This document shows positions 5,199 through 39,043 of a DNA stretch of 64,000 nucleotides, piece after piece. Origin of the DNA: Frigoriglobus tundricola (GTDB taxonomy: Bacteria > Planctomycetota > Planctomycetia > Gemmatales > Gemmataceae); assembly GCF_013128195.2 (NCBI RefSeq), contig NZ_CP053452.2, forward strand, positions 8,432,001-8,496,000, in the 5' to 3' direction. A program made the position numbers and the translations under genes. Below the pieces are notes generated by a model. That model was not told where the DNA came from, did no database searches, and saw only the letters and a program-made list of their open reading frames with translations. How positions within the stretch are numbered: the first letter of the stretch is position 1; each line of letters begins with the position of its first letter.

Positions 5199-8099
5199 TT
5201 ATGGGTTGGGGTCGGGCTCTTTTTTGGGCTCGGCTCCCTTTTTGGGCTCGGCTTCTTTCTTCGGCCCCGGTGGCAAGATGGGGGGAGAATACCCCTTTAA
5301 CGCGTCCACAAACTCGCCCGGTTTCACACCGACCATGCCCTTGATGGTCAGGAACTTGCCTCGCAGTTCGGCGTTCGGCTCGTTAGCGGCTTGCTCCCGG
5401 AGCGGGTCGATGAGCGTCGCGGGCAGAGCGCTCCCGTTTGCCCGTATGTGCCGGATCACCGCGTCGGCCGCTTTGACCCGAAGCGCCAGGGGCCTGCCCT
5501 CTCCGCCCAGTGCCACGTTCAGAAGCGCCAGTTGGGCGTCGCCCGACTTGTACCGCTCGACGGCATCGACGGCCGCGGGGGCCAGCTCGGGAACCGTCAG
5601 TGCGGCACGGAGTTCGGGCTCAGCGGAGCGGATGTCGTAACCGGGCAGGTCGCCGATCGCCATCAGCCGCAGGAACTCGATCGCCGCCCGCGCGTCGGCC
5701 TTTTTCACTGCCGGGTCACGCGGGAGCATCATCGGGTCGGCGAACAGCACTCTGAACTCGGTCTCCAGGGCGAGCCGGGTGTACGGTTCCGGGATGATTC
5801 TCACCGATGGGTAGCCCGAGAGCGTGCGGGCGAGCTTGCCCTCCAGCGCCGGATCGCGGAACGTCTCCACCTTCAGTCCCAGATCGGTCGTATCGACGCG
5901 CGCGCGGAGGAAGTCGTACTTGTCCTGCGCACTCTTGACCCTGGCCACATCGATTTCCAGCCGCTCAATCAGTTTCATGAGTTCGGTCGAGGGAATTCCG
6001 ATCCCGTAAGCCGGAGAGGGCGGTTGCCGATCGAGCTGTTTGCGAATGCGTTCCACGTCCAGCACCGTTTCCGGGGCGGAGTCGGGCGTGAGGGGGAATT
6101 CGGTCGCGAGGATCGCGTAAACGATCAGTTGAACGCGGAGATCCAGCAGCCGCCGTTGCGTCTCGCTCAGCGTCATCGGGAGCGTGTCGATCACCCGCTG
6201 GATGCGGACCGTGCGGGCGGCGGCGGCGCTGCGGAACACGTTGTCCCGGCGCTTCACGAGGGCGGTGCGCACGGCCAGTTGCTCGTCCGGTGGGGCGCGC
6301 GGATCGACAACATATGGTGCGGGCATCGCGACCGCGTCGTTTTCGGTGGCGGCGATGAGCGCGGCCGTTCGCAACAGCAGTTGATCGAAGGTCGGTACGC
6401 GCGGCCGGTCGGAAGAGGCGATCACGAAGACCGGACGCGCTGCGGCCTTCACGTCCGCGCGGAGCTGGCCGATGAAATCGATCAGCTCGGGCGGCGCGGC
6501 GTGGTGATCGATGAAGATGACGTCGAAATCCGATGCGCGGCCGATCCGGCGCAGCAACTCGCGGCCGGAGGTGAACTGTTCCACGTTGAAGCCGAAACTC
6601 CGCAGCAGGAGGGCGTTGGCGTCGGAACGAAACTTGGCCGGGTCCGCGAGCAGGACGGTCCCCTTCGACTCGCCCGGCACCCCGGGATCGTTCGCGGCGG
6701 CGCGCCGCAGGATGTCAACGATGAGGGGGCGGGCCGTGGGCGGAACGGGCACGGGCGAGCGGAGCAGGGCGGAAGCCGCAGCAAACTGCACCGCCGGGTC
6801 GGGGTACGAGAGCGCCCGCACGAGGAGCGATGGTTTAACTTCGGCACCGGCGGGCGGGGTCGCGGCGGCGCGGTCGGCGCGGTCGCCGAGCACCTGCGCC
6901 ATCGCCAGCACGAGCGTCGTGCGCTTCTCAACCAGCCCGCGGTTAAGCAGGTCGCCGAGAACGGCCGAGGGTGCGTCGGACAACAGCCGGTAAACGGCGG
7001 GCTCGGCGGTGGCGAGGGCGCCGAACTTGGCCCGCTCGACCGCCCGCTCGGCGGCCAGGGCCAGAATGACGCCCTGAGCCGGACCGTAATCGGGACGCGA
7101 TTCCAGTGCCCAGCGCGCGTACCGGAGACCGTAGAACTCTTCGGCTTGACCGATCGGCACTTCCGGGAGCCGCTCGATCTTCATCAGTTTGGCGTCCCAC
7201 ACCCAGACGGGCACCACGCTCGGGCTCCCGTCCGGGTTGGTCTTCGCACCGATGTAGCGGGCCTTGTGGTCGTAGAACTTGCGGGCGATCTCTGTCAGTT
7301 CGACCTCGGGGCGTTTGGTGTCCGCCTTGGTGCCCGGGTACAGTCGGTTGAGCAGGGCGAGGGCCTGGCGGCGCAGGTTCTCGGGCACGTCCTTCGGGTC
7401 ACGCGACAGGACGCGCCAGAGGTACGGCGTGAAATCCGTTTGGGCCTCGGTGGTGAGGCTCAGGACGTCGCGCCGCGATGACAGGGCGGTCAGCACCCCG
7501 TACTGGCGGTCCGGGCCGAAGCCGTCGAGGGCGGCGACCCAGCCCGCCATCGTCGGGGCTTCGAGGACCGGAATCGTTTCGAGGATGCCGGAGTACACGT
7601 CCCGGTCCGGGTTGGTCCGGATCGCGTCGATCAGGAACGGGACGGCGAACTCGCCCGTCCGCTTCAGCTCCTGCTGTGCAAAAATCTTCTCCTCGTAGGT
7701 CGCGCCGAGGTTGCGGATGTACTTCTGGACGCGGTCCGGCTGGTACAGCACCTTGGTCGCGGCGTCCCGGCCGCGCTTGATCAGCTCCTCGATGTTCTCG
7801 CGGATCTTCTTTTCGCTCGCCGGATCATCGGAGTACTTCGGGATCGTTCGCAACTGCTGGAACACGGTGGTCCCGTACTTGCTCTCGATTTCCAGTAGCT
7901 CGGCCTCGGAGGGGCCGCTCTTGAGGAACTCGTCGAGGAAGATGCCGGCGACGTCGAACTTGCCCTCGCCCATCGTGGCCCGGAACTGGGCGTAGATTTG
8001 CAGCGGTTTCGGCGGCGGACCTTTCGGCTGTGCCTCTGTGCGGCCCGCGCCGGCGAGCGCGAGGGCGATCGCAAGGGCGAGGAACGAAGCGGTTCTCAC
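5199..8099 (-). CDS. Large secreted HEAT-repeat-like protein with receiver-like segment (966 aa)
   Basis: The GTG at 8099 is preferred to an in-frame GTG at 8168, since GAGGAG precedes it by 7 nt and the protein then begins with a clean signal peptide (MRTASFLALAIALALAGAG). Much of the chain is alternating Ala/Leu-rich helices resembling HEAT repeats, for example around FAVPFLIDAIRTNPDRDVY and ALSYPDPAVQFAAASALLR. Around residues 480-570 a stretch looks like a degenerate response-regulator receiver domain, with FDVIFIDHH placing Asp531 at the phospho-acceptor position. The C-terminus is Lys/Glu/Pro-rich. Probably periplasmic or envelope-associated; no known family is recognised. A strong terminator follows. 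Confidence 0.75.
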   Translation of the reverse strand: MRTASFLALAIALALAGAGRTEAQPKGPPPKPLQIYAQFRATMGEGKFDVAGIFLDEFLKSGPSEAELLEIESKYGTTVFQQLRTIPKYSDDPASEKKIRENIEELIKRGRDAATKVLYQPDRVQKYIRNLGATYEEKIFAQQELKRTGEFAVPFLIDAIRTNPDRDVYSGILETIPVLEAPTMAGWVAALDGFGPDRQYGVLTALSSRRDVLSLTTEAQTDFTPYLWRVLSRDPKDVPENLRRQALALLNRLYPGTKADTKRPEVELTEIARKFYDHKARYIGAKTNPDGSPSVVPVWVWDAKLMKIERLPEVPIGQAEEFYGLRYARWALESRPDYGPAQGVILALAAERAVERAKFGALATAEPAVYRLLSDAPSAVLGDLLNRGLVEKRTTLVLAMAQVLGDRADRAAATPPAGAEVKPSLLVRALSYPDPAVQFAAASALLRSPVPVPPTARPLIVDILRRAAANDPGVPGESKGTVLLADPAKFRSDANALLLRSFGFNVEQFTSGRELLRRIGRASDFDVIFIDHHAAPPELIDFIGQLRADVKAAARPVFVIASSDRPRVPTFDQLLLRTAALIAATENDAVAMPAPYVVDPRAPPDEQLAVRTALVKRRDNVFRSAAAARTVRIQRVIDTLPMTLSETQRRLLDLRVQLIVYAILATEFPLTPDSAPETVLDVERIRKQLDRQPPSPAYGIGIPSTELMKLIERLEIDVARVKSAQDKYDFLRARVDTTDLGLKVETFRDPALEGKLARTLSGYPSVRIIPEPYTRLALETEFRVLFADPMMLPRDPAVKKADARAAIEFLRLMAIGDLPGYDIRSAEPELRAALTVPELAPAAVDAVERYKSGDAQLALLNVALGGEGRPLALRVKAADAVIRHIRANGSALPATLIDPLREQAANEPNAELRGKFLTIKGMVGVKPGEFVDALKGYSPPILPPGPKKEAEPKKGAEPKKEPDPNP

Positions 8100-20002: not shown

Positions 20003-20113
20003 CGCGTTGTCGGTCCATCAGGAGGTGGTGCGCGTCGGGCTGCGGGGCGTTTGTACTCCGCGCGGGCGGAACGGCGGGCCGTGCCGGTGTCGGTCCGGCT
20101 TCTGTCCGTCACC

Positions 20114-20182
20114 TGTAGCGGGCCTCTGTGAGGCCGGCATTCCGGGCGGCGTGTCGCCCCGGCCTCACAGAGGCCCGCTACA
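20114..20182. repeat. Perfect 24-bp inverted repeat (REP-like hairpin)
   Basis: Arms at 20114-20137 and 20159-20182 are exact reverse complements, with a 21-nt loop. The arms start TGTAGCGGGCCTC and are GC-rich. It lies between ispH and the ABC operon, both on the minus strand, so it could end ispH transcription, although no T-run follows. The self-contained palindrome looks like a dispersed repeat unit; whether it recurs cannot be seen from this window. Confidence 0.65.
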
Positions 20183-20206
20183 GAAAGCCCTCAACACGAT
20201 TCGGTA

Positions 20207-28615: not shown

Positions 28616-28742
28616 ACCTCACATCACACACCGAATCGACACGTCGTGTTTTCTGTTCGTGACCTACCTTTTGGTGTGGTCTGGGGCGGCTCGCGGCCCC
28701 GGCCGTTGCACGCCGCTGGACTCGATGTGAGGGGTGCCCTCA

Positions 28743-31460
28743 GTGGCAATCGCCTGCCCGTATTGTTCGCACCGCATCAACCTGAAGGCCACCAAGCCGG
28801 GCCGCTACCGACCCAAGTGCCCGAACTGCGCACAGCCGTTCCTCCTGTGGGTGTCGGACACGGCCGGCGCTGCGCCGCGGGTTCAGGTGCTTCCGAACGA
28901 CACTCGGGTCGCCGGCCCGCGCGCCGCGGGGGAGCCTTCTTCGACCTCGTTTACTGTGGCCGAAGGTTCGGGCAATTCGGCACAAGGCGTGGCCACCGCC
29001 GGACCCAGCGATGCCGCGAACTCGTCGCACGTCTTCGGCTTCGCGCACACCAACCCGGACCAGGACCCATCGAACGGGTCCCACCGCTCACCCGGCCCGG
29101 AGTTCCAGTCGGGCGAGGACGACGGGCGGGTCACCCTCGGCCCGCGCATGGACGTGCGCGGGTACGCCATCGAACACGAACTCGGTCGCGGCGGCATGGG
29201 GACGGTGTACCTCGCCCGGCAGCTCTCGCTCGACCGGCCGGTGGCGCTCAAGGTGATGAGCAAGCGGTGGGCGAGCGACCCGGTGTTCGTCGCCCGCTTC
29301 ACCCGCGAGGCGTTCGCCGCGGCGCAACTGTCGCACCCGAACATCGTGCAGATTCACGACATCGGCGAGGCCGACGGGGCGCGCTTCTTCAGCATGGAAT
29401 ACGTGCGCGGCAAATCGCTCGCGGACCTCGTGCGCGTGGAGGGCAAGCTCGACCCCGAGACGGCCGTCGGGTACGTGCTCCAGGCCGCCCGCGGCTTGAA
29501 GCACGCCCACGACCGCGGCATGATCCACCGCGACGTGAAGCCCGACAACCTCTTGCTCGACGACCAGGGGCTCGTGAAGGTCGCCGACCTCGGGCTCGTG
29601 AAGACGCCGACCGTCACGCGCCAGGACGACCAGTTGACGCAGGCCAGTTCGCGGAGCGGACTGTTCTCGCTGCCGCCGGAGATGACCGGCGCGCGGATCG
29701 CGCTGGGCACGCCCGCGTACATGTCCCCCGAACAGTGCCGCGACGCCGCGACCGTGGACCACCGCGCGGACGTGTACTCGCTCGGGTGCACGCTCTACGT
29801 CCTGGTGACCGGGCGCCCGCCGTTTGAGGGCACCACGGCCGTCGAACTGATGAGCAAGCACGCGTACGAGCCGATCGTCCCGCCGGAGCAACTCGTCAGC
29901 CGGGTGCCCAAGGAAGTGTCGGCCGTCATTCAGCGGATGATGGAGAAGGACCCGGCCGATCGCTTCCAGGACATGGCCGAAGTGGTCCGGACGCTGGAAG
30001 CGTGGCTCGGCGTCCACCACACCGGCACGTTCTCGCCGCAGGAGGCCCAGATCGCCAAGCTCGAAGGGTACGTGTTCCAGTTCAACACGGCCGCCTCCGC
30101 CGTCCTTCGCGGCCGGCTCGTCTCGGGGTTCTTCGGGGCCGTTGCACTGGTGGCGGTGCTGCTCGCGTTCTTCGGCAAGCTCGGCTGGGCCTTCGGCGTG
30201 TTCGGGCTCGCGGCCGAGGCCACGCTCGCGTACTTCGTGCTCGACGGCGTGACCCGGAGGGGCCACCTGTTCGGCTGCGCCCGCCGGTTCGTCGGCGGGA
30301 TGGGGCTGAGCGACCTCGCGGTCGGGGTCTCCGGGTTCGCGATGTTTTGCATCCTGCTCGCACTGTTGAAAGTGTTCTGGGTGTGGGTTGGGTTCGGAGT
30401 TGTGGGGCTCGGGCTGGCGGTTGCGCTTCGGTACGCCCTGGATCGCGCGGTACAGGAAGAGCGGCGCGGGCCCATCGAGGGGTGCGAGCGGCAGCTGCGG
30501 CGGATGCGGGTCCAGGGGCTGGACGAGGAGGCGCTGCGACAGTTCGTAGCGAAGTTCGCCGGCCGGCAGTGGGAGGAGTTCTTCGAGGCGCTGTTCGGGT
30601 TCGAGGCGAAACTGGCCGCGCGGGCGCTGCTGCTCCGCGGCGGCGCGGCCGGCGTGCGGGACAAGCACGCGGCCTGGCGCGAGCCGCTGGTCGCGTGGAT
30701 GGAGCGCGTCGAAAAAGCGCGCACGGAGGCCCGGCAGCGGAAGCTGTTGCAAGCGGTGGAGCGGGCGAACCTGCTCGCGGCCGGGGCGACCGTTCAGGCC
30801 GCCGAGGACCAGGCGAGCGCCGCTGCTGAAGCGATGGTTCGTGCGGCCGCGACGATCCGCCAGTCCGAGCAAACGGCCCGGGCGCGACCGGGCCAGACCA
30901 CCGTCGCGGCGCCCGCGAACGTGCGGACCCTGGTTCGGGCCGCGGAGCAACCGGACGAGTTCGCGTTCGTCCCCACGAGGAAGGACGACACGTTCGGGCT
31001 CTTCATCTCCCTGTTCGTGGGCCCGCACGTCCGCGCCGTGGCGGCGGCGCTGCTCCTCGCCAGTTGCGCACTGTGGGCGCACCAGAACGCCCTCGTGTCC
31101 GGCGCCGAGATCCAGGCACAGGCCGCGAAAGCCATCGAAAACAGTGAACTCCCAGCGGTCCCGGGTCCGGCTGCTCTCGAGCACGCACATTCGCCCCGGC
31201 CGCTCGTCGTGGGCGGCGTGCCGGCCGCACTGACGGCGTGGGTGGACAGCTTCAACGTGGGGCTGGCCGGGCTGATGCTGCTCGGTTCGCTCTGCTTCCG
31301 CGGCAACCTGATGGGCGTGTTCGTCCTCATCGGCGCGGCGGTCGCGGTCGTGGGGCACCAACTCGGGATCCGCAACGTCGAGCCGTTCCGCGATTACCAC
31401 GTCTCGCTCATGCTCGGCGCGCTGCTCGCGCTCGTCGGCTGTCGCCTCGGAACGCGGTGA
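28743..31460 (+). CDS. Zinc-ribbon Ser/Thr protein kinase with C-terminal membrane segments (905 aa)
   Basis: Domains in order: an N-terminal zinc ribbon (Cys5, Cys8, Cys26, Cys29), a Pro/Ser-rich linker, a Hanks-type kinase domain from about residue 140 to 420 (GRGGMGTVYLAR glycine loop, Lys170, HRDVKPDN with Asp264, and DLG at 282-284 in place of DFG), two paired hydrophobic blocks near residues 455-505 and 525-560, a coiled-coil stretch, and further membrane helices at the C-terminus. This architecture is typical of planctomycete membrane kinases. The GTG at 28743 is preferred because AGGGG lies 8 nt before it. The retron genes follow 189 nt later; a shared role is not shown. Confidence 0.9.
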   Translation: MAIACPYCSHRINLKATKPGRYRPKCPNCAQPFLLWVSDTAGAAPRVQVLPNDTRVAGPRAAGEPSSTSFTVAEGSGNSAQGVATAGPSDAANSSHVFGFAHTNPDQDPSNGSHRSPGPEFQSGEDDGRVTLGPRMDVRGYAIEHELGRGGMGTVYLARQLSLDRPVALKVMSKRWASDPVFVARFTREAFAAAQLSHPNIVQIHDIGEADGARFFSMEYVRGKSLADLVRVEGKLDPETAVGYVLQAARGLKHAHDRGMIHRDVKPDNLLLDDQGLVKVADLGLVKTPTVTRQDDQLTQASSRSGLFSLPPEMTGARIALGTPAYMSPEQCRDAATVDHRADVYSLGCTLYVLVTGRPPFEGTTAVELMSKHAYEPIVPPEQLVSRVPKEVSAVIQRMMEKDPADRFQDMAEVVRTLEAWLGVHHTGTFSPQEAQIAKLEGYVFQFNTAASAVLRGRLVSGFFGAVALVAVLLAFFGKLGWAFGVFGLAAEATLAYFVLDGVTRRGHLFGCARRFVGGMGLSDLAVGVSGFAMFCILLALLKVFWVWVGFGVVGLGLAVALRYALDRAVQEERRGPIEGCERQLRRMRVQGLDEEALRQFVAKFAGRQWEEFFEALFGFEAKLAARALLLRGGAAGVRDKHAAWREPLVAWMERVEKARTEARQRKLLQAVERANLLAAGATVQAAEDQASAAAEAMVRAAATIRQSEQTARARPGQTTVAAPANVRTLVRAAEQPDEFAFVPTRKDDTFGLFISLFVGPHVRAVAAALLLASCALWAHQNALVSGAEIQAQAAKAIENSELPAVPGPAALEHAHSPRPLVVGGVPAALTAWVDSFNVGLAGLMLLGSLCFRGNLMGVFVLIGAAVAVVGHQLGIRNVEPFRDYHVSLMLGALLALVGCRLGTR

Positions 31461-31649
31461 TCCGGTAGACCGTCAAGCCCCGCTGACAGGGCCGGGGAGG
31501 GAGCCGAGGGGCGTGGGTCTTCTCCGCTGGCACCGCGCGACCGGTGGCACGCACTTCCCAGCGCCCGTTTTCCTTTTCGTCACCTCAACGGTCCTTGCAC
31601 ACGCATCGCGCGTCGCATACCATCCAACTCCACCCACCGGGACGAGTCG

Positions 31650-33416
31650 ATGGCGCGCGATCGTAAGCCCCCACCATCCAACAGCGACCCCAACTGGGAC
31701 CGCACCGTGCGGATGTTTCAGGCCGGCGCGCCCGAGTTCGTGGACGCCGTCCGCCTGCGGGTGAACGGCGCCGTGCTCGCGCCGTTCGCGGAGACGTGGT
31801 ACACCGATCCCCGCGTCGAGGCCAAGCGGTTACTGTTCGCGTACCTCGAACGCCCCTTCAACTCGCCGCGGCACGAGCCGCTCGTCAAACGCATCTTCAA
31901 GTTCGCGGAAGCCGCCGGCGACGACGCGGTGATGGCCCGGTTCCTCGTCGGTTTCGACCGCACCATCCGCCGCCACCGCGTCACGAAGCAGAAGTACAAC
32001 TCCCGGCGCCGGCAGTACGAACAGTACGAAACCGTTGCGACCCGGACCGATACCACGCTTTCGCGGGAGGACCGGGCCTACACCGGCCCTTGGTTCGCGC
32101 AGAACCGCGAACAGTTCGTCGCCGGGAAGTTCCTGTTTTCGGTCGCGACACGCAACTACCTCCGGCGCCGCGCGTGGCGGTACTTCCGCAGGCTCGGGCG
32201 CGCGGCCCCCGACCGGTACGTCCCCGCGGTCTGCACCGCGCTCAAGCTGTACACCGATGCTGATGTACCAGACGGCGTGGCGCTCCTCGACAACTGGGGC
32301 CTGGTTCACGTTCTCTTCCACCACTCGCCCACCCTTGAGGCGAGGGCGAGTGGGTGGCGGGTGGCGACCGGGGGATCGCTCTCGCGGTTGCAGCCGGACC
32401 CGATGTTCCGCAAGCTGTGGCTGCGGGGCGCGGAGCCGATCTTCGACCTGCTGGTGAACGCGCGGTGTGCGACCGTGGCGCGGTGGGCGATGATGATGCT
32501 CCGCCGGAACTTCCCGGACCGGCTCGCCCGAGTCGAACTTTCGGAGCTCCTCATGTGGATCGGCTCGCCGAATCCGGTTCTTAACGAACTCGCGCTCGAC
32601 CTGCTCGAAACGCGCGGCGGCTTGGAATCGATGAGCATTGAGGACTGGCTGACGGTCGCCGAGTCGGCCCGACCAGAGCTGCTCGACCGGATATGTGTCG
32701 TGGTGGCACGGGTCGTGAAGCCGGAAGCCGTGAATTTCGCCAACGCGGTGCGGCTCGCGATGCAGCGCCCGGTGCCGCTCGCGCGGCTCGGCTTCCTGTT
32801 CCTCCAGGGAAAGAAGCCCGTAACGCACCCGGAGCGGGTTGCGGTGTTCGGGCTCCGCAACGCCGCGGCCGACCCGGTGCGCGTCGATCTCGTGAAATGG
32901 GCCTGCGGCGTGCTGAGCGAGCAACCGGATTTCGACCCGCTCTGGGTGCTGGAGTTCCTGGACAGCCGCTTCAACGACGTGCGCGAGGTCGGGTGGGAGT
33001 GGCTCCAATCGGACGCGCGGGCGCGCGATTCGGTCCTCGTTTGGCAGCGCCTGTTGGAGTCGCCGTATGACGACATCCGGTTGCGACTCGTGGGGATGCT
33101 CGAAGACCGAGCCAAGGAACCCGCGGGGCTGTCGAAATACTCGCCGGAAAGTGTGCGGCTGCTCTGGGCATCGGTTCTCCTCAACGTGCATCGCGGCAGC
33201 CGGGCGAAGCCGTTCGTGGTGCGGCAGATCATCGACCGGTTGAGCGCGCACCCGGACGAGGCCGGTGAGCTGCTCCCGATGGTCGCGGTCGCGCTGCGGT
33301 CGGTGCGCGGGCCGGAGTTCCGCGCCGGGCTGGCCGGCATCACGAATTACGTCACGAAGTACCCCACGCGGAAGCCGCTGGTGGAAGCGGTCTTCCCGGA
33401 GCTGAAGTGGGAGTGA
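31650..33416 (+). CDS. ARM/HEAT-repeat-like protein of the retron locus (588 aa)
   Basis: A soluble, largely helical protein with no signal peptide. From about residue 260 on it has HEAT/ARM-like helix pairs, for example WIGSPNPVLNELALDLLETR, RFNDVREVGWEWLQSD and SPYDDIRLRLVGMLEDR. The N-terminal 200 residues hold an Arg/Tyr-rich helical segment (RRHRVTKQKYNSRRRQYEQY). Its place upstream of a winged-helix/SWIM gene and a retron reverse transcriptase matches, from memory, the ARM partner of type XIII retrons. By analogy it would be the effector or an effector scaffold in phage defence; nothing in the sequence gives a catalytic activity. A large inverted repeat and RNA element 1 follow the stop. 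Confidence 0.8.
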   Translation: MARDRKPPPSNSDPNWDRTVRMFQAGAPEFVDAVRLRVNGAVLAPFAETWYTDPRVEAKRLLFAYLERPFNSPRHEPLVKRIFKFAEAAGDDAVMARFLVGFDRTIRRHRVTKQKYNSRRRQYEQYETVATRTDTTLSREDRAYTGPWFAQNREQFVAGKFLFSVATRNYLRRRAWRYFRRLGRAAPDRYVPAVCTALKLYTDADVPDGVALLDNWGLVHVLFHHSPTLEARASGWRVATGGSLSRLQPDPMFRKLWLRGAEPIFDLLVNARCATVARWAMMMLRRNFPDRLARVELSELLMWIGSPNPVLNELALDLLETRGGLESMSIEDWLTVAESARPELLDRICVVVARVVKPEAVNFANAVRLAMQRPVPLARLGFLFLQGKKPVTHPERVAVFGLRNAAADPVRVDLVKWACGVLSEQPDFDPLWVLEFLDSRFNDVREVGWEWLQSDARARDSVLVWQRLLESPYDDIRLRLVGMLEDRAKEPAGLSKYSPESVRLLWASVLLNVHRGSRAKPFVVRQIIDRLSAHPDEAGELLPMVAVALRSVRGPEFRAGLAGITNYVTKYPTRKPLVEAVFPELKWE

Positions 33417-33419
33417 ACC

Positions 33420-33529
33420 GAGGCAGCGAGCGGCGCGGCGCGAGCCCGCCGGTGCGGTACAACCCCATTCACCGATGCGGATTTTCTGTTAGCGGCACCG
33501 GCGGGCTCGCGCGCGCCGCTCGCTACCTC
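33420..33529. repeat. Long imperfect inverted repeat (35-36 bp arms) after the ARM gene
   Basis: Arms at 33420-33455 and 33495-33529 are reverse complements with one mismatch and one extra G in the left arm, separated by a 39-nt AT-richer loop. The arms include AGCGAGCGGCGCG and GAGCCCGCCGGTG. It starts 3 nt after the ARM stop codon and ends 11 nt before the a1 arm of RNA element 1. It may terminate the ARM transcript, or may be a dispersed palindrome that landed here. Confidence 0.75.
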
Positions 33530-33540
33530 GCTGGAGAACA

Positions 33541-33749
33541 CGGTGTCCGTCGCGATCCGAGACCTTCTCTGCGGCGTTCCGCCGCGGGTGAGTTTGCTTG
33601 CGATTGCGTCCCCAGGTGCGTTGTTCTTTTCGCCCGACCGGGACCGGTCGGACGCGGCTGGATCAACCTGCGTTCCTCGTCCGACCGGTCCCGGTCGGGC
33701 GTCGTGAACGCTCCTGGTCCCGGGTTGAAGTCGGGCGCGGCGGACACCG
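33541..33749 (+). ncRNA. Retron msr-msd-like RNA, element 1 (upstream of the SWIM gene)
   Basis: Layout matches a retron template RNA. The a1 arm CGGTGTCCGTCGCG (33541-33554) pairs with the a2 arm CGCGGCGGACACCG (33736-33749) with one G-U pair. Next comes a small hairpin at 33569-33587 (CTGCGGCG, TTC loop, CGCCGCGG), then a 20-nt unpaired motif GCTTGCGATTGCGTCCCCAG, then a long msd-type hairpin whose stem of 24 perfect base pairs is 33631-33654 with 33678-33701. A basal helix (33612-33622 with 33707-33717) has one T-T mismatch. The element ends 50 nt before the SWIM gene ATG. Element 2 at 36081-36290 keeps the unpaired motifs but has different stems. Exact ends and the branching G (perhaps in CCGAGAC after a1) are inference. 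Confidence 0.85.
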
Positions 33750-33799
33750 GATACACGGGCGACCTGTCCCTTGCGGGCGGGGGTCGTCGAGAGGACGTT

Positions 33800-35494
33800 A
33801 TGCAAGTCGCGTTCGCGTACCGCGGTCGGAGTGGCGTCGCCCAGACGAACGCCGGGCTGGCGGTCGCGCTCGCGCCCAACGTGCGCCGGGACCGCGTCAG
33901 CTTCGTAGGCACACTGAAGCAACCGCTCCGGTTCCGCGAAGCGATGAGCGCCCTTCACGACGTCGTGATTTCGGACCTCCGGTTCAAACCGAAAGACAAA
34001 ACCGGTTACGAGGAGTGGAAGAAGCAGGAAGCGGCCCGCGAGGCGGCGGTCCGCTCCGAGGCCGTGAAACTGAAGCGGTCGGAACTGGAGAAGGAGAAGA
34101 ACCGGCCGATGCCGCCGGGGCTGGAGCGGAGGTACCAGAAGTGCCGGCAGCGGTACTGGGACGCGCGCACGAAGTACGGCAACATGCTGTACCGGGAAGA
34201 CCCGGACCTCTGGCGCCTGCTCATGCCGTGCGACCCGGTCATCACCGTCAGCCCGGACGTCCTGTTCTTCGAGTGCTTCAGTGCAGACGAGAGCAGTTAC
34301 GGCTGCCTGAACGTCGAGCGCGAGGCGTTCGAAGCCGAAACCGATGTGGCACTCGGCACCACGAACGTCGATTACTCGTGGCGGCTCTACGAACACTTCC
34401 AGACCATCCGGAGCTACCGCGAAACGCGGTTCGCCATCGACCCGACCGGCTTCGAGGTGCAGACGACCGCTACCGAAGCCGGCTACCGTGAGGAGAAAAT
34501 CGAGCTGCCCCAGAGCTGGCTCCGCGGCTTCTCGGCGCTCCAGTCCGCGATGAGCCTGCCCATGCGGCGCGTCCCGGTCAGTCGCGAGGGGGTGTACGCG
34601 CTCGTCGCGTTCCTGAAGCGCCACCGGGCCAAAACGTCCCCGCGGGCCGTGCGCTTCGAGCTGACGCCCGGTCGGCCGGTGAAAATCGTTCTGGAACCGT
34701 GGAACAAGGAGATCGTCCTCTACGACACGCCGTACCCCGGCCCGCGTGCGGAAATCATTCGCACCTGGGGCCGGGACCGGCTCCGCGTGCTGGGCCGATT
34801 GCTCCCGCTACTCGACGGGTGCGATGTGTACCTGCTCGGGACGGGGCTCCCGGCCTTTTGGGTGGCCAGCATGGGCGAGATGAAGCTCACGCTGGGGCTC
34901 TCGGGCTGGACCGCCAATGACTGGACGAGTGGCGGGAGTGCCATCGATCAACTCGCCCCGCCGGTGGCTCCCTCGAACGAGGTGATGAGGGCTCTGGCTG
35001 ACGCGTTCAAGCTGACGCCGACGTGGACCCTCGGCGCGCTCGTGTCGACGACACGCAGCCCCGCGCCAGTGATTTCGGCGGGGTTGAACAAGCTCGCGCT
35101 CCTGGGGCAGGTGATTCACGACCTGCCGCACGGCGTGTACCGGTGGCGGCAGGTGATGCCCGTCACGCTCTCGGTGGAGGTGATCGGACCGGACAACGAG
35201 GAGACGGTGGCGGCCCGCGAATTGGTGGGTTGGAAGTGCCGCATCACTGCCGACGCGACCGACGAGAAGGGGCGGCGGAAACTCGTCGGGAACGTGGAGG
35301 GGCGGTCGAGTGCGGAGGTCACGCTCGACCCCGACGACCGGATCGTGGCGGGGAAGTGCTCGTGTTCGTACTTCTACACCGGCGGCCTGCGGAAGGGGCC
35401 GTGCCGGCACCTGCAAGCGGTCCGCAACAAGGCGCTCGGCTTCGGTGACCAGGGCGGCACACTCGAGAACTGGTTCAAGCGGTTCACGAATTGA
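33800..35494 (+). CDS. Winged-helix plus SWIM zinc-finger protein of the retron locus (564 aa)
   Basis: A SWIM zinc finger is plain near the C-terminus: Cys520-x-Cys522, then Cys535-x-His537 (KCSCSYFYTGGLRKGPCRHL). Before it, around residues 400-455, a winged-helix-like segment reads LNKLALLGQVIHDLPHGVYRWR. The N-terminal 350 residues have no recognised domain but contain a charged helix (residues 70-120). SWIM fingers bind DNA or proteins, so it may recognise the msDNA or the target. From memory, this winged-helix-SWIM protein paired with an ARM protein defines type XIII retrons. The ATG at 33800 has AGAGGA 5 nt before it; the protein is encoded directly after RNA element 1. Confidence 0.88.
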   Translation: MQVAFAYRGRSGVAQTNAGLAVALAPNVRRDRVSFVGTLKQPLRFREAMSALHDVVISDLRFKPKDKTGYEEWKKQEAAREAAVRSEAVKLKRSELEKEKNRPMPPGLERRYQKCRQRYWDARTKYGNMLYREDPDLWRLLMPCDPVITVSPDVLFFECFSADESSYGCLNVEREAFEAETDVALGTTNVDYSWRLYEHFQTIRSYRETRFAIDPTGFEVQTTATEAGYREEKIELPQSWLRGFSALQSAMSLPMRRVPVSREGVYALVAFLKRHRAKTSPRAVRFELTPGRPVKIVLEPWNKEIVLYDTPYPGPRAEIIRTWGRDRLRVLGRLLPLLDGCDVYLLGTGLPAFWVASMGEMKLTLGLSGWTANDWTSGGSAIDQLAPPVAPSNEVMRALADAFKLTPTWTLGALVSTTRSPAPVISAGLNKLALLGQVIHDLPHGVYRWRQVMPVTLSVEVIGPDNEETVAARELVGWKCRITADATDEKGRRKLVGNVEGRSSAEVTLDPDDRIVAGKCSCSYFYTGGLRKGPCRHLQAVRNKALGFGDQGGTLENWFKRFTN

Positions 35495-35532
35495 AGGTAC
35501 GGCACGCCCGGACGGGTGCGCCAGGAGGACGC

Positions 35533-36030
35533 GTGACCAGATCGGTGCTGTTCGCGGGGCTGCTCGGTGGGGTACTCGGGGCCGTGATCGCGTTCGGGCT
35601 GACACGAACGTTTCCGTTTCCGGTTCCGCCGCCGCCGGTCCCAGCGCCGCGGCCGAGTGATGCGCGGCCGAGTGCTGCACGACAGTACACCGACGACCTG
35701 ATCGCGCTGCTCAGGGCCGGTAACAACGAGGCGTTCCTCAAAGGGGTCCGGCAAGCGTTCCCCGTGCCCGATGAGCGGTTCGATGTGGAGGTCCGTGTGC
35801 CGCTCTTGAAGCAGCGCCAGCTCTGGGAACAGGAGTACGGTAAGGGTTCGGATTTCGAGTTCATCCGCGAAACGGCCCTCGGCCCGAACCTCGTGCGCTG
35901 CGCGTATTTGGAGAAGTTCCCGCGCGGGTGCGTGGTATGGTACATCGTGGTCTACAACGGCCCCACCGGGTGGCAGGTGCTGGCGTTCAACCAACTGTCG
36001 CTCGAAGCGGCGTTCCACTTGTTGAACTGA
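35533..36030 (+). CDS. Small membrane-anchored protein between SWIM and RT genes (165 aa)
   Basis: The GTG at 35533 is chosen because AGGAGG lies 4 nt before it; a TTG at 35491 overlapping the SWIM stop is the alternative. The protein has one N-terminal hydrophobic helix (SVLFAGLLGGVLGAVIAFGL), a Pro-rich linker, and a soluble domain with YTDDLIALLRAGNNEAFLKG and CVVWYIVVYNGPTGWQVLAF. The soluble part would face the periplasm if the helix is a signal anchor. No family recognised. Its location inside the retron locus, 39 nt after the SWIM gene, makes it a candidate extra component, but it may be a passenger. Confidence 0.75.
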   Translation: MTRSVLFAGLLGGVLGAVIAFGLTRTFPFPVPPPPVPAPRPSDARPSAARQYTDDLIALLRAGNNEAFLKGVRQAFPVPDERFDVEVRVPLLKQRQLWEQEYGKGSDFEFIRETALGPNLVRCAYLEKFPRGCVVWYIVVYNGPTGWQVLAFNQLSLEAAFHLLN

Positions 36031-36080
36031 CGGAGAGCGGGCGCGGCGGATGCGGCCCCGTTCCCAACAAATACTTGAGC

Positions 36081-36290
36081 CAAGCGGCCGGCTCCGAGAC
36101 TGAAACCTCCTGCGGCGTTCCGCCGCGGGTGCGGTCGCTTGCGATTGCGTCCCCAGGCGCGTTGGTCTTTTCGCCGGTGCCGGGTACCCCGGGCACAACG
36201 GAACCGACCTGCGTCTTGTGCCCGGGGTACCCGGCACCGGCGTTCGTGAACGCCCCTGGTCCCCGGGTGAAGTCGGAGCCGGCCGTCTTG
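36081..36290 (+). ncRNA. Retron msr-msd-like RNA, element 2 (upstream of the RT gene)
   Basis: The a1 arm CAAGCGGCCGGCTCCGA (36081-36097) pairs with the a2 arm TCGGAGCCGGCCGTCTTG (36273-36290) with one bulged base. A small hairpin identical to that of element 1 follows at 36110-36128, then the shared motif GCTTGCGATTGCGTCCCCAG, then an msd-type hairpin of 27 perfect base pairs (36172-36198 with 36216-36242) closed by a 17-nt loop that shares ACCTGCGT with element 1. The basal helix (36153-36163 with 36249-36259) carries one C-C mismatch at the place where element 1 has T-T. It ends 45 nt before the RT start, the usual position for a retron template RNA. This strongly suggests that it is copied into msDNA. 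Confidence 0.9.
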
Positions 36291-36335
36291 TTTACTTCAC
36301 CGGCCACACGGTCGGGGGACCAGCGGGCCGCTGCC

Positions 36336-37922
36336 ATGAGCCTGTTCGACTGGATGTTCCGCCGCCGGCGCACGTCGGAACCGGAACCGGTACAGCCTCC
36401 GGTGCCAGTCGAGCCCCCCGTGCCGGCTGTACCGCCAGTGACCGCCGCTCCCGAGACGACGAAGACCGAACCCGCGGGCGACCCCTACGCGTCGGCGGAG
36501 TTCCTGCCCGTATCGCGTCAAGAGATCGTGGACGCCGCACGGGGCGGCAACTTGCTGTCCACAGCCTTCCAGTTCGGGCGCTCAAGCACCATTCCACCAG
36601 CGAGTGACCCGCGCACGCAACTCATCGACCGCGCGATGGTCACTCACGGGCTGCTGTCGCCCGAAGAGCTGAACGAGATTCACCGCGTCGGTGACGAGTA
36701 CGACACGGTCAAGCCGACCGATCAGAGCATGGCCGCCGCGGCCGGGCTGGCGGGCGCCGCCGCGGTCCGGGCGTTCCGGGAGGCGAAGGAACGCGAGAAG
36801 GCACGCAAGAAAGCCGAATCGGCCGCGCGTCAGAAGGCCCGCGCCGAGGCCGTGAAGCGCCGGCGGGCGACGGAAATCATTTTCCTCGGCCGCGGCGTCT
36901 CCGGCCGGCTGCACCTGAAATTGAGCGACGAACTGCGGCTCGTCGCGAACGGTCTGCCGGTGCTGCACTCTCCGACCGACGTCGCGCACGCCCTCGGCCT
37001 CACGATCAAGCAACTGCGCTGGCTCGCGTTCCACACGGAAGTCGCGACGAAAACCCATTACGTCACGTTTCAAGTGCCCAAGAAGTCCGGCGGAATGCGC
37101 ACGCTCGCCGCGCCCCACAAAGCCCTCAAGGCCGCTCAGCACCGGCTACTGGAGACTGTGGTCGCCCGGTTGCCCGTTACGGAGGCCGCGCACGGGTTCG
37201 TGGCCGGTCGGGGGATCGTGACCAACGCCGGCCCGCACGTCGGGAAGGAGGTCGTCGTGAACCTCGACCTCTCCGATTTCTTCCCCTCGATCACGTTCCC
37301 GCGCGTCCGGGCGGTCTTCGAGCGCTACGGGTACTCCGGCAGCGTGGCGACCGTTCTCGCGCTGTTGTGTACCGAGTGCCCGCGCCAGGCGGTCACGTAT
37401 GCCGGAACGAAGTACGAGTCCGCCACCGGTCCGCGGGGACTGCCGCAAGGCGCCCCGACCAGTCCCGGCCTCTCGAACCAGGTGGCACGAAAGCTCGACA
37501 AGCGGCTCCTGGGCGTCGCCGCCAAGCTCGGCCTCACGTACACGCGCTACGCGGACGACCTCACGTTCTCCGGCGGCCCGGAACTGGCGAGCAAAATCGG
37601 TTGGCTGCTCGCCAAGGTCCGGCATGTAGCGCAGGAGGAGGGCTTCGCCGTCAACGAGAAGAAGACCCGCGTGATGCGCCGAAGTATGGCGCAAACCGTG
37701 ACCGGCGTGGTCGTGAACGACAAGCCGTCGATCGACCGCGACGAACTCCGGCGGCTCCGCGCGATCCTCCATCGGGCGAAGACCGAGGGGCTGGACGCCC
37801 AGAACCACGAGGGGCGCCCGAACTTCCGGGCCTGGCTCGCGGGTAAGATCGCGTTCGTACACATGGTCCGCCCGGATGCCGGCGCGAAGCTGAAAGCGGC
37901 CCTCGACGCTCTCGACTCATAA
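36336..37922 (+). CDS. Retron reverse transcriptase (528 aa)
   Basis: Residues 225-525 form a reverse transcriptase with the features of retron enzymes: NAxxH as NAGPH (297-301), NLDLSDFFPSIT with a catalytic Asp, RGLPQGAPTSPGLSN, the YADD active site (405-408) in YTRYADDLTFSG, and the VTG thumb motif (455-457). The N-terminal 200 residues are an extension: a Pro-rich linker, then an Ala/Lys/Arg-rich coiled-coil-like stretch (residues 140-180) and a small domain (ALGLTIKQLRWLAFHTEV) typical of retron RTs. It should copy the msd part of the RNA just upstream into msDNA. The ATG at 36336 is used; codons upstream in frame overlap the RNA element. A repeat element follows 12 nt after the stop. 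Confidence 0.95.
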   Translation: MSLFDWMFRRRRTSEPEPVQPPVPVEPPVPAVPPVTAAPETTKTEPAGDPYASAEFLPVSRQEIVDAARGGNLLSTAFQFGRSSTIPPASDPRTQLIDRAMVTHGLLSPEELNEIHRVGDEYDTVKPTDQSMAAAAGLAGAAAVRAFREAKEREKARKKAESAARQKARAEAVKRRRATEIIFLGRGVSGRLHLKLSDELRLVANGLPVLHSPTDVAHALGLTIKQLRWLAFHTEVATKTHYVTFQVPKKSGGMRTLAAPHKALKAAQHRLLETVVARLPVTEAAHGFVAGRGIVTNAGPHVGKEVVVNLDLSDFFPSITFPRVRAVFERYGYSGSVATVLALLCTECPRQAVTYAGTKYESATGPRGLPQGAPTSPGLSNQVARKLDKRLLGVAAKLGLTYTRYADDLTFSGGPELASKIGWLLAKVRHVAQEEGFAVNEKKTRVMRRSMAQTVTGVVVNDKPSIDRDELRRLRAILHRAKTEGLDAQNHEGRPNFRAWLAGKIAFVHMVRPDAGAKLKAALDALDS

Positions 37923-37934
37923 GACAAAGACATC

Positions 37935-38075
37935 TCACCACAACGGCACCAAGCTCGCACAGAGGGCCACAAAGAAGGCATTTCAACTCAAAAGATGAGA
38001 GGAAGTGCTGGCTTTTGGGCTCTGTCCGCCGTTTTCGTTGTGGCCCTTTGTGCGAGCTTGGTGACTTTGTGGTGA
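37935..38075. repeat. Empty copy of the 40-bp inverted-repeat element (MITE-like)
   Basis: Arms 37935-37974 and 38036-38075 are reverse complements at 36 of 40 positions, with 61 nt between. They closely match the arms of the GxxExxY element at 25217-25760, including CAAGCTCGCAC and GGGCCACAAAG. There is no gene inside. It lies between the RT stop and the secreted propeller gene, whose ATG is 21 nt to the right, so it probably carries or displaces that gene's promoter. Confidence 0.75.
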
Positions 38076-38095
38076 ACTCTTCTCTTGGAGCAACC

Positions 38096-39043
38096 ATGCG
38101 ATCGCTTCTCTCCCTCGCTTGTCTCTCCCTCGCGCTCCCCGTGCTGGCGGCCGATCCGCCGAAGCACCCCGGCTACCGGGTGCTCGCCCAGGACAGGGGT
38201 AAGGTGGCGATCATCGGGACCGACGGCAAAATCGAGTGGGAGGTCGCGTGCGGTCACAACTCCCACGACATCGCTCTGCTCCCGAACGGCAACCTGCTGC
38301 TCCACACCGGCGGCACGACCGTGACCGAGATGACGCCAAAGAAAGAGGTCGTGTGGAAATACGAGGCCAAGCCGAAAGAAGGCTACAAGGGCCGCGTCGA
38401 GGTTCACGCGTTCCAGCGCCTCGCCGACGGGAACACGCTGGTCGCGGAGAGCGGCAACCGGCGGATCGTGGAAGTGGACAAGGACGGGAAGATCGTGAAG
38501 GAGATCACCCTTCAGGTGAACAAGCCGGACCCACACCGCGACACCCGCATGGTCCGGAAGCTCGATAGCGGCAACTATCTCGTTTGCCAGGAGGGCGACG
38601 GGTGTGTACGCGAATACGACTCGACAGGGAAGGTGGTCTGGGAGTACAAACTCGACCTCGGCGGCCGGCCCGCGTCGGACGGGCACGGCCCCGAGGGGCA
38701 CGGGACGTCGGTCTACGGCGCGATCCGGCTGGCCAACGGAAACACAGTGATCGCGGGCGGGAACAACAACCGCGTGCTGGAAGTGGCCAAGGACGGCAAG
38801 GTGGTGTGGTCGATCGACCAGAAGGAACTGGACGGGGTCACGCTGGCCTGGGTGACCACGCTGCACGCCCTCCCGAACGGCAACCTGATCGTCGGCAACT
38901 GCCACGCCGGCCCGGACAACCCGCAACTTTTCGAGGTGACGCGGGACAAGAAGGTCGTGTGGCAGTTCCGGGATTTCAAGACCTTTGGGAACTCGTTGGC
39001 GGCGGCCCAAGTCCTCGACATCAAGGACGTGCGTCGGAAATAA
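38096..39043 (+). CDS. Secreted PQQ/NHL-type beta-propeller protein (315 aa)
   Basis: A signal peptide (MRSLLSLACLSLALPVLAA) precedes a chain of beta-propeller blades with the repeating pattern of a hydrophobic strand, DGK and W-E/S: TDGKIEWEVACG, KKEVVWKYEAK, DGKIVKEITL, STGKVVWEYKLD, DGKVVWSIDQ and KKVVWQFRDF. NGNLLLHTGG, DGNTLVAESGNRRI and NGNTVIAGGNNNRV are the connecting strands. This fits periplasmic PQQ-like or NHL-like propellers. It is probably a binding scaffold; no catalytic residues are evident. GGAG lies 6 nt before the ATG. The P-loop gene follows 37 nt later. Confidence 0.85.
   Translation: MRSLLSLACLSLALPVLAADPPKHPGYRVLAQDRGKVAIIGTDGKIEWEVACGHNSHDIALLPNGNLLLHTGGTTVTEMTPKKEVVWKYEAKPKEGYKGRVEVHAFQRLADGNTLVAESGNRRIVEVDKDGKIVKEITLQVNKPDPHRDTRMVRKLDSGNYLVCQEGDGCVREYDSTGKVVWEYKLDLGGRPASDGHGPEGHGTSVYGAIRLANGNTVIAGGNNNRVLEVAKDGKVVWSIDQKELDGVTLAWVTTLHALPNGNLIVGNCHAGPDNPQLFEVTRDKKVVWQFRDFKTFGNSLAAAQVLDIKDVRRK

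Follow-up and report, generated by a model that had tools for sequence, protein, structure and literature searches.

Background

Retrons are usually described as carrying one RNA per reverse transcriptase (RT). The scheme of retron types that includes type XIII reportedly stems from Mestre et al. 2020, and for Nannocystis exedens the titles of Lampson and Rice 1997 and Lampson et al. 2002 announce msDNA-like repeats, a partial msDNA copy, and a possible retrotransposition. In the available part of PMC6868368, each cassette of the myxobacterial retrons Mxa1 (Mx162) and Mxa2 (Mx65) has one msr-msd, whose a1/a2 arms are accompanied by a branch G (in GAGC in Mxa2), and their RTs have an N-terminal extension; according to the same part, the branch G of retrons usually stands in AGC, with a CAGA variant known from Eco2, and priming takes place at this G, with copying from the base before a2. 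PADLOC places type XIII retrons among known and candidate defence systems, and it has RNA models of its own for msr-msd (PMC9252829, available part), while 'retron type XIII' is named among the PADLOC finds of a Variovorax (PMC11953036, available part). The available parts of PMC8867640, PMC12548924, PMC9252829, PMC13405049, PMC6868368, and PMC11953036 held no description of a planctomycete or type XIII template or of a multi-template retron, and no mechanism for type XIII was found in a literature search of limited coverage.

Here, we analyzed a window of 64,000 nucleotides (the whole stretch of DNA under study, from contig NZ_CP053452.2 of Frigoriglobus tundricola; positions count from its first letter unless a locus is named). 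Its operon encodes the same three protein families as the type XIII retrons of PADLOC, but it has two templates, and its relatives hold up to three per operon together with copies elsewhere, or templates before the SWIM gene only. The two templates also set it apart from the single msr-msd of Mxa1 and Mxa2, with which it shares an N-terminal extension of the RT, of about 200 residues here, in front of the part that matches other retron RTs. The templates of the window read AGAC at the branch, and 22 of the 103 templates aligned here read AGCC, which resembles the GAGC described for Mxa2. The multi-template and trans-template arrangement and the predicted clamp fold of one protein are the parts that appear as new when set against a literature of limited coverage.

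Methods

The first template alignment was made with MAFFT from 16 templates, i.e., the two of the window and fourteen from six close relatives (L045-L050; loci carry L numbers and genomes G numbers). Covariance model R1 was built from these 16 templates and given all 40 loci L045-L084, while model R2 was built from 103 templates and run on 19 of the loci L045-L084 besides the named SWIM loci. The latter were obtained from a genome scan with a SWIM alignment, in which 418 of 433 pattern matches were relatives; the 80 best of these were kept, which cover the closest members of the family instead of sampling it at random and include near-duplicates (Polyangium). The 103-template alignment was fitted to the model; besides named loci it contained the window and 10 of the loci L045-L084, and two cut loci (L136, L137) and two near-copies of L150 (L153, L160) were left out. 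The presence of the HEAT, SWIM, and RT genes on the pieces was called by tblastn with the window's proteins, and that of templates by R2. The RT tree was computed with a quick method from 59 rows, i.e., 58 of the 60 loci complete for the three genes (L153 and L160 left out) and the window.

Results and discussion

A type XIII operon

The best PADLOC matches across the three large genes were HEAT-ARM_XIII, SWIM_XIII, and RT_XIII, all with E-values of 3e-156 or better (Table 1), and with HEAT-ARM_XIII and SWIM_XIII as neighbours of RT_XIII the operon is, by these matches, a type XIII retron, an already known kind that is presumed to be an anti-phage element. The RT, in which an earlier note on this DNA had recognized the retron marks NAxxH, YADD, and VTG, carries them as NAGPH, YADD, and VTG at residues 297, 405, and 455, which places it in the retron class, and its nearest solved chain is the retron RT Ec86 (E 1.5e-39). 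An msr-msd is encoded together with the RT and its ends pair as a1 and a2. The small ORF at 35533-36030 had no Pfam or PADLOC match, its tblastn matches were confined to close relatives (L045, L048, L049, L086-L090, and L094), and an N-terminal membrane segment, judged by eye, is possible. No sigma-70-type promoters were found within 31400-38300.

Around the operon, a serine/threonine kinase gene upstream of the HEAT gene (28734-31460) matches the PD-T4-6 models of PADLOC, which may mean nothing since such kinases are common in planctomycetes. Right behind the RT gene lies an imperfect inverted repeat with 42-nt arms (37935-38075), perhaps a terminator or a repeat element. Elsewhere, the host genome has two further RT_XIII-like RTs (L073, 7737536-7740783, and L074, 8787572-8788627), one of them with a SWIM gene.

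Table 1. Genes and template RNA elements of the operon, in window positions
Feature	Position	Strand	Remarks
HEAT/ARM-repeat protein, 588 aa	31650-33416	+	PADLOC HEAT-ARM_XIII, E 3e-178
Template RNA A (msr-msd), between HEAT and SWIM genes	33541-33749	+	
Template A, arm a1	33541-33560	+	pairs with 33731-33749
Template A, predicted branch (priming) G	33561	+	in CGAGAC; A and G invariant in 103/103 templates
Template A, msr GC hairpin	33569-33587	+	
Template A, basal helix, 5' side	33612-33622	+	3' side 33707-33717
Template A, long msd stem, 24 bp perfect, tip loop between arms	33631-33701	+	arms 33631-33654 and 33678-33701; inverted-repeat scan
Template A, arm a2	33731-33749	+	
SWIM zinc-finger protein, 564 aa	33800-35494	+	PADLOC SWIM_XIII, E 8e-176, scanned from 33836
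Small accessory ORF	35533-36030	+	likely GTG start at 35533 (from sequence)
Template RNA B (msr-msd), before RT gene	36081-36290	+	
Template B, arm a1, 17 nt	36081-36097	+	
Template B, predicted branch (priming) G	36098	+	in CGAGAC; invariant in 103/103 templates
Template B, msr hairpin 1 (GC)	36109-36129	+	RNAfold, covariation
Template B, msr hairpin 2, G-U rich, pairing weakly conserved	36131-36148	+	
Template B, basal helix, 5' side	36153-36163	+	3' side 36249-36259
Template B, long msd stem, 27 bp perfect	36172-36242	+	arms 36172-36198 and 36216-36242
Template B, predicted first cDNA template base, G just before a2	36272	+	G in 103/103 templates; start inferred from retron rule
Template B, arm a2, 18 nt	36273-36290	+	
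Retron reverse transcriptase type XIII, 528 aa	36336-37922	+	PADLOC RT_XIII, E 3e-156; Pfam RVT_1

Two template RNAs with a covarying structure

The earlier note had listed a1/a2 arms, a GC hairpin, a basal helix, and a 27-bp perfect stem for template B, and all of these were recovered at the same positions: a1 pairs fully with a2, with one a2 base bulged, the basal helix has one mismatch in 11, and a2 does end 45 nt before the ATG of the RT gene at 36336. Msr hairpin 2 is an additional element. RNAfold gave -148.8 kcal/mol for 36075-36295 vs. -100.6 ± 5.0 for 200 shuffles (z -9.6), none of which was as good. The proposal that these helices together make up a retron msr-msd is supported by the RT class, the gene neighbours, the arms, the invariant branch G, and the covarying stems. 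The template had further been placed directly upstream of the RT, which holds for template B; however, it is one of two, and the templates of relatives do not always adjoin the RT.

A blastn search of the window with template B revealed a copy at 33559-33741 (78% identical over 189 nt), template A, which folds with a z of -8.0 (RNAfold) and scores 191.7 bits with R2, a model whose training set included it. The hairpin, basal helix, and tip loop of the two are of the same kind and their long-stem arms are 0.44-0.48 identical; judged by this sequence comparison, template A is a paralogue of template B. No dispersed copies beyond A and B were found in the host genome, where the third-best model match had an E-value of 0.0036. 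Directly before template A lies an inverted repeat (33438-33512) with 18-nt perfect arms, or a longer imperfect one by eye, and in L045 and L049 an inverted repeat also lies between the two pre-SWIM templates. A stem-only R1 match on the minus strand of the window (20113-20183, 25 bits, E 2.5e-4) was absent with R2 and is therefore probably an ordinary hairpin.

Over the 16 templates, 95.4% of the 911 cells of 57 pairs were paired, vs. 75.1% in shuffled alignments and 34-45% with slid partners; both sides had changed in 30 of the 57 pairs (22.9 in shuffles) and in 174 cells (48.3 in shuffles), and among the 27 long-stem pairs this applied to 25. In the alignment of 103 templates fitted to the model, 92.6% of the pair cells were paired vs. 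65.1% in shuffles, with 49 of the 57 pairs (vs. 41.6) and 1551 cells (vs. 482) changed on both sides. The structure of the templates is not due to chance. The number of further pair types among the 103 templates did not exceed that of shuffles (498 of 500 were as high), which is expected if only Watson-Crick pairs are allowed and lends no support by itself, and hairpin 2 was poorly kept, with 68% of its cells paired. The branch site reads A-G-[A 80, C 22, T 1]-C, where the A, G, and C are present in all 103 templates, such that each has the branch G at the end of a1 that is expected of a retron, and the base before a2 is G in all 103.

Model R1 found 32 templates of at least 103 bits on the coding strand in 42 sources, 25 of them along the full model and 7 starting at its position 19, while the remaining 30 of the 62 matches were far weaker and many of them are the same stems on the opposite strand. 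A homology-free inverted-repeat scan of 41 pieces located a stem with 19-27-nt arms at each of these 32 templates. The template had no Rfam match at the gathering threshold, and a permissive Rfam search of 33400-36400 returned 10 sub-threshold matches, which apart from two were microRNA-type hairpins at the stems; few retron RNAs are covered by Rfam.

Predicted structures of the SWIM and HEAT proteins

The SWIM protein was modelled from 36 sequences with middling confidence (pLDDT 77.8). The 50 matches listed by Foldseek were all PCNA-type clamps or complexes holding one (best E 5e-10), and residues 34-372 aligned with PCNA with a Z of 19.0 and an rmsd of 3.0 over 233 residues (VIA-align), from which a PCNA-like sliding-clamp fold is predicted for this part. 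The likeness to PCNA is one of predicted fold: identity in the structural alignments is 7-13%, so that no sequence kinship is shown, and unlike PCNA the SWIM protein has an extra helical insert and a SWIM zinc finger, with the CxCx(n)CxH motif at residues 520-537. Four arginines (R46, R242, R327, and R333) are present in 36 of 36 sequences and lie in three of the four helices that we take, by the structure of PCNA, for channel helices; the fourth has no conserved basic residue. A predicted clamp fold alone shows neither DNA binding nor a ring, and a sliding-clamp-like partner gives a concrete hypothesis for type XIII retrons. The HEAT protein was modelled as a mostly helical solenoid (pLDDT 90), and its Foldseek matches were weak, the top ones being solenoid proteins.

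Proposed mechanism

Our main reading, to which we assign a probability of roughly 0.85, is that the operon is a type XIII retron in which two template RNAs, A and B, share one RT, with the SWIM protein as the likeliest partner of the duplex. It draws on the gene make-up, the template structure and its covariation, the conservation across several phyla, and the extra templates of the relatives, all of which the sequences show. The RNA would fold such that pairing of a1 with a2 places the branch G (33561 or 36098) next to the template base that precedes a2, whereupon the RT would prime on the 2'-OH of this G and copy back through the basal helix and the long stem; on template B, cDNA synthesis would begin at 36272 and proceed through the basal helix as far as about 36140-36153. 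The expected products would be two branched msDNAs of differing sequence, each with roughly 120 nt of DNA and a 24-27-bp duplex. The earlier note had anticipated a DNA part of about 36172-36242, which has to be revised, as the retron priming rule (PMC6868368, available part) predicts the longer product of roughly 120 nt.

In this mechanism, the stem sequence would be nearly free but would have to pair as Watson-Crick DNA, and since the sequence is free and the duplex is not, the partner probably reads the shape of the duplex rather than its sequence. The likeliest partner would be the SWIM protein, the predicted PCNA-like clamp of which could grip bare duplex, and HEAT and SWIM may be the sensor and effector held by the RT-msDNA, by analogy with other retron defence systems.

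Templates in related operons

Of 148 genomes taken from the class, 48 had a SWIM_XIII match of any subtype. The six close relatives (L045-L050) have the same gene order as the window, with two templates in four of them and three in the other two. Among the 80 nearest SWIM loci, 60 held HEAT, SWIM, and RT genes and a template was present in 60 of 60. The placement differed among these complete loci: one template before the RT (36 loci), two before the RT (2), one before SWIM only (12), two before SWIM only (2), one at each site (6), or two before SWIM and one before the RT (2). A single template was thus found in 48 and two or three in 12, while 14 had templates before SWIM only and none beside the RT, and 38 had a copy before the RT and none before SWIM. 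On the RT tree, two changes were needed for a template before SWIM, five for one before the RT, and eight for more than one template, i.e., the position shifts rarely and the copy number more often.

Among the 20 incomplete loci, 12 had a template, a tally that includes four pieces cut by contig ends (L136, L137, L098, and L093) and a weak, truncated match (L097, 21.6 bits) that appeared with R1 only, none of them among the 60. The eight loci without a template also lacked an inverted repeat above 15 pairs; SWIM is the sole member of the trio in four of them (L130, L154, L157, and L163), L105 ends with SWIM, L106 has HEAT and SWIM without an RT match, and for L100 and L124, where SWIM and RT are present, the piece lacks the HEAT side.

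Going by record titles, the template-bearing hosts belong to Planctomycetota, Verrucomicrobiota, and Myxococcota, with one Acidobacteriota and one Riflebacteria bin, and the covariance model offers a means to find such RNAs across the first three phyla. Nine more distant loci (L058, L061, L062, L068, L070, L073, L074, L077, and L081), among them the second SWIM-RT system of the host genome (L073, at 7.74 Mb), had no R2 match, and any R1 matches in L070-L084 stayed at or below 14 bits; the model is limited to a single branch of type XIII. In viral contigs, the RT query had one relative among nine pattern matches and the SWIM query one partial relative among 56, while five plasmid records matched, one of them along the greater part of the SWIM protein.

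Templates away from the operon

Under stricter filters, 52 of 297 genomes of the class had a model match with an E-value of 1e-6 or better. At least nine genomes (G014, G022, G034, G038, G062, G089, G187, G220, and G223) carry orphan templates, i.e., templates around which tblastn with the proteins of the window found neither HEAT nor SWIM nor RT within about 5 kb to each side, a lower bound since the surroundings were examined for part of the matches in the 52 genomes; two further candidates lie on short contigs (G019 and G050). G022 has five orphans, three of them in a row. In seven of the nine genomes, the orphans are full-length against the model, with both arms and long-stem folds. Copies away from the retron in the chromosome liken these genomes to Nannocystis exedens, as far as its titles tell, but in contrast to the partial copy there, the seven genomes have full-length, two-armed templates and two sets of orphans are syntenic: one after a WD40/cytochrome gene (G014, G034, G062, G223, and G050) and one between the NfeD and FloA genes (G089, G187, G220, and G038). 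The NfeD-FloA site held no template in six genomes, that of the host included, and when filled and empty sites were compared, the empty ones were too diverged to reveal insertion ends. A trans template, if real, would be of practical interest for retron-based DNA production.

At some loci, a template and an RT occur without a SWIM match (L170, L184, L185, and L190-L193), in two cases together with HEAT (L188 and L189), and out of 10 genes near templates in SWIM-less loci, eight had no PADLOC match and two matched HEAT-ARM_XIII (L188 and L173). Three full templates stand in tandem in L167 (6186-6892), with no retron genes nearby and a TatD-like gene close. L173 (G164) has two weaker template matches (6842-7363) near a gene of another HEAT-ARM_XIII subtype, which by sequence are perhaps a bridge to more distant type XIII templates.

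These copies allow a wider reading that we hold as possible but tentative, namely a multi-template network, in which one RT copies several msr-msd RNAs, those in the operon and, in relatives, trans copies between housekeeping genes, and the SWIM clamp grips mostly 23-27-bp duplexes by shape. The msDNAs would share a core and differ in a fast-changing duplex, whose turnover would perhaps escape phage proteins that attack or methylate one msDNA, and loss or change of the duplex would release the HEAT/SWIM effector.

Conversely, template B could be the only active one, with template A and the tandem and orphan copies as decaying duplicates without a role. The orphan of G014 without its 3' half, that of G034 split into two pieces more than 1 kb apart, and the single template of 48 of the 60 complete operons would fit such decay, which we nevertheless judge unlikely: template A, whose arms average 92-96% identity, occurs in the window and in all six close relatives, its stem stays at 24-27 bp with at most one mismatch though its sequence is largely replaced, and most genomes with firm orphans have them at full length. 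Moreover, the 12 operons with one template and the two with two that are placed before SWIM only imply that the pre-SWIM position must be able to serve alone.

Turnover of the long stem

Between orthologous templates, the identity is 0.92-0.96 in the a1/a2 arms, 0.85-0.93 in the msr, and 0.38-0.51 in the stem arms; the long stem is the fastest-changing part of the template, and its pairing is kept. In the 103 templates, G-U pairs made up 22 of 2744 cells (0.8%) in the long stem, 13 of 1030 in the basal helix, and 9 of 407 in the inner a1/a2 arms, compared with 212 of 925 in the msr hairpin and 145 of 701 in hairpin 2 (21-23%). Mismatched cells numbered 132 of 2744 (4.8%) in the long stem, 58 of 1030 in the basal helix, 6 of 407 in the inner arms, 9 of 925 in the msr hairpin, and 224 of 701 in hairpin 2, and among the modelled stem pairs, 25 of the 103 templates had none that was not Watson-Crick, 32 had one, and 46 had two or more. 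Under selection at the RNA level, a helix should evolve by way of G-U pairs, so their near-absence in the part that a retron RT would copy suggests that selection acts on the DNA form of the long stem, i.e., on a DNA hairpin. The four inner a1/a2 pairs stay RNA and yet are poor in G-U; low G-U is accordingly support and no proof of DNA. Stems that keep their pairing while losing their sequence represent a natural experiment on what retron partners recognize in msDNA, and a hairpin that changes fast yet stays well paired makes the mode of working of type XIII testable.

Two further ideas on the long stem were not upheld. An all-or-none swap of whole stem cassettes does not agree with the 37 pairs of core identity of at least 0.95, which are spread over the full range of stem identity (mean 0.66 vs. 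0.44 for shuffled arms), although a few pairs do look cassette-swapped, e.g., the pre-RT stems of L045 and L048, which are the same where compared. For the msd stem as captured phage sequence, the best phage match had an E-value of 0.06 over 22 nt (template B only).

The joint changes of the arms and the near-absence of G-U would also arise from hairpin-templated correction, i.e., the pairing could be kept by the mutation process (template switching at palindromes) and not by selection on msDNA, in which case it would say little on function. We consider this quite improbable, as conservation extends to the msr hairpin, basal helix, and branch site, which lie outside the palindrome, the stem arms measure 15-27 nt in 116 of 118 templates (mostly 23-27), and the element accompanies the RT_XIII operon in all 60 complete loci. 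That the structure acts in cis on the SWIM and RT genes, as an attenuator or terminator and not as an RT template, is very improbable: each operon copy does sit just before a gene and contains a terminator-like match (36146-36161 and 33605-33620; nine in the region vs. 4.6 by chance), but the orphans adjoin NfeD/FloA or WD40-cytochrome genes, 38 of the 60 complete loci have a copy before the RT and none before SWIM, and the order a1, branch G, msr, msd, a2 is the anatomy of a retron template.

Within the operons of L045 and L049, the basal helix and the 5' linker are identical between templates A1 and B and differ between the two genomes, a sequence pattern that hints at gene conversion between the copies or at matching to their own RT.
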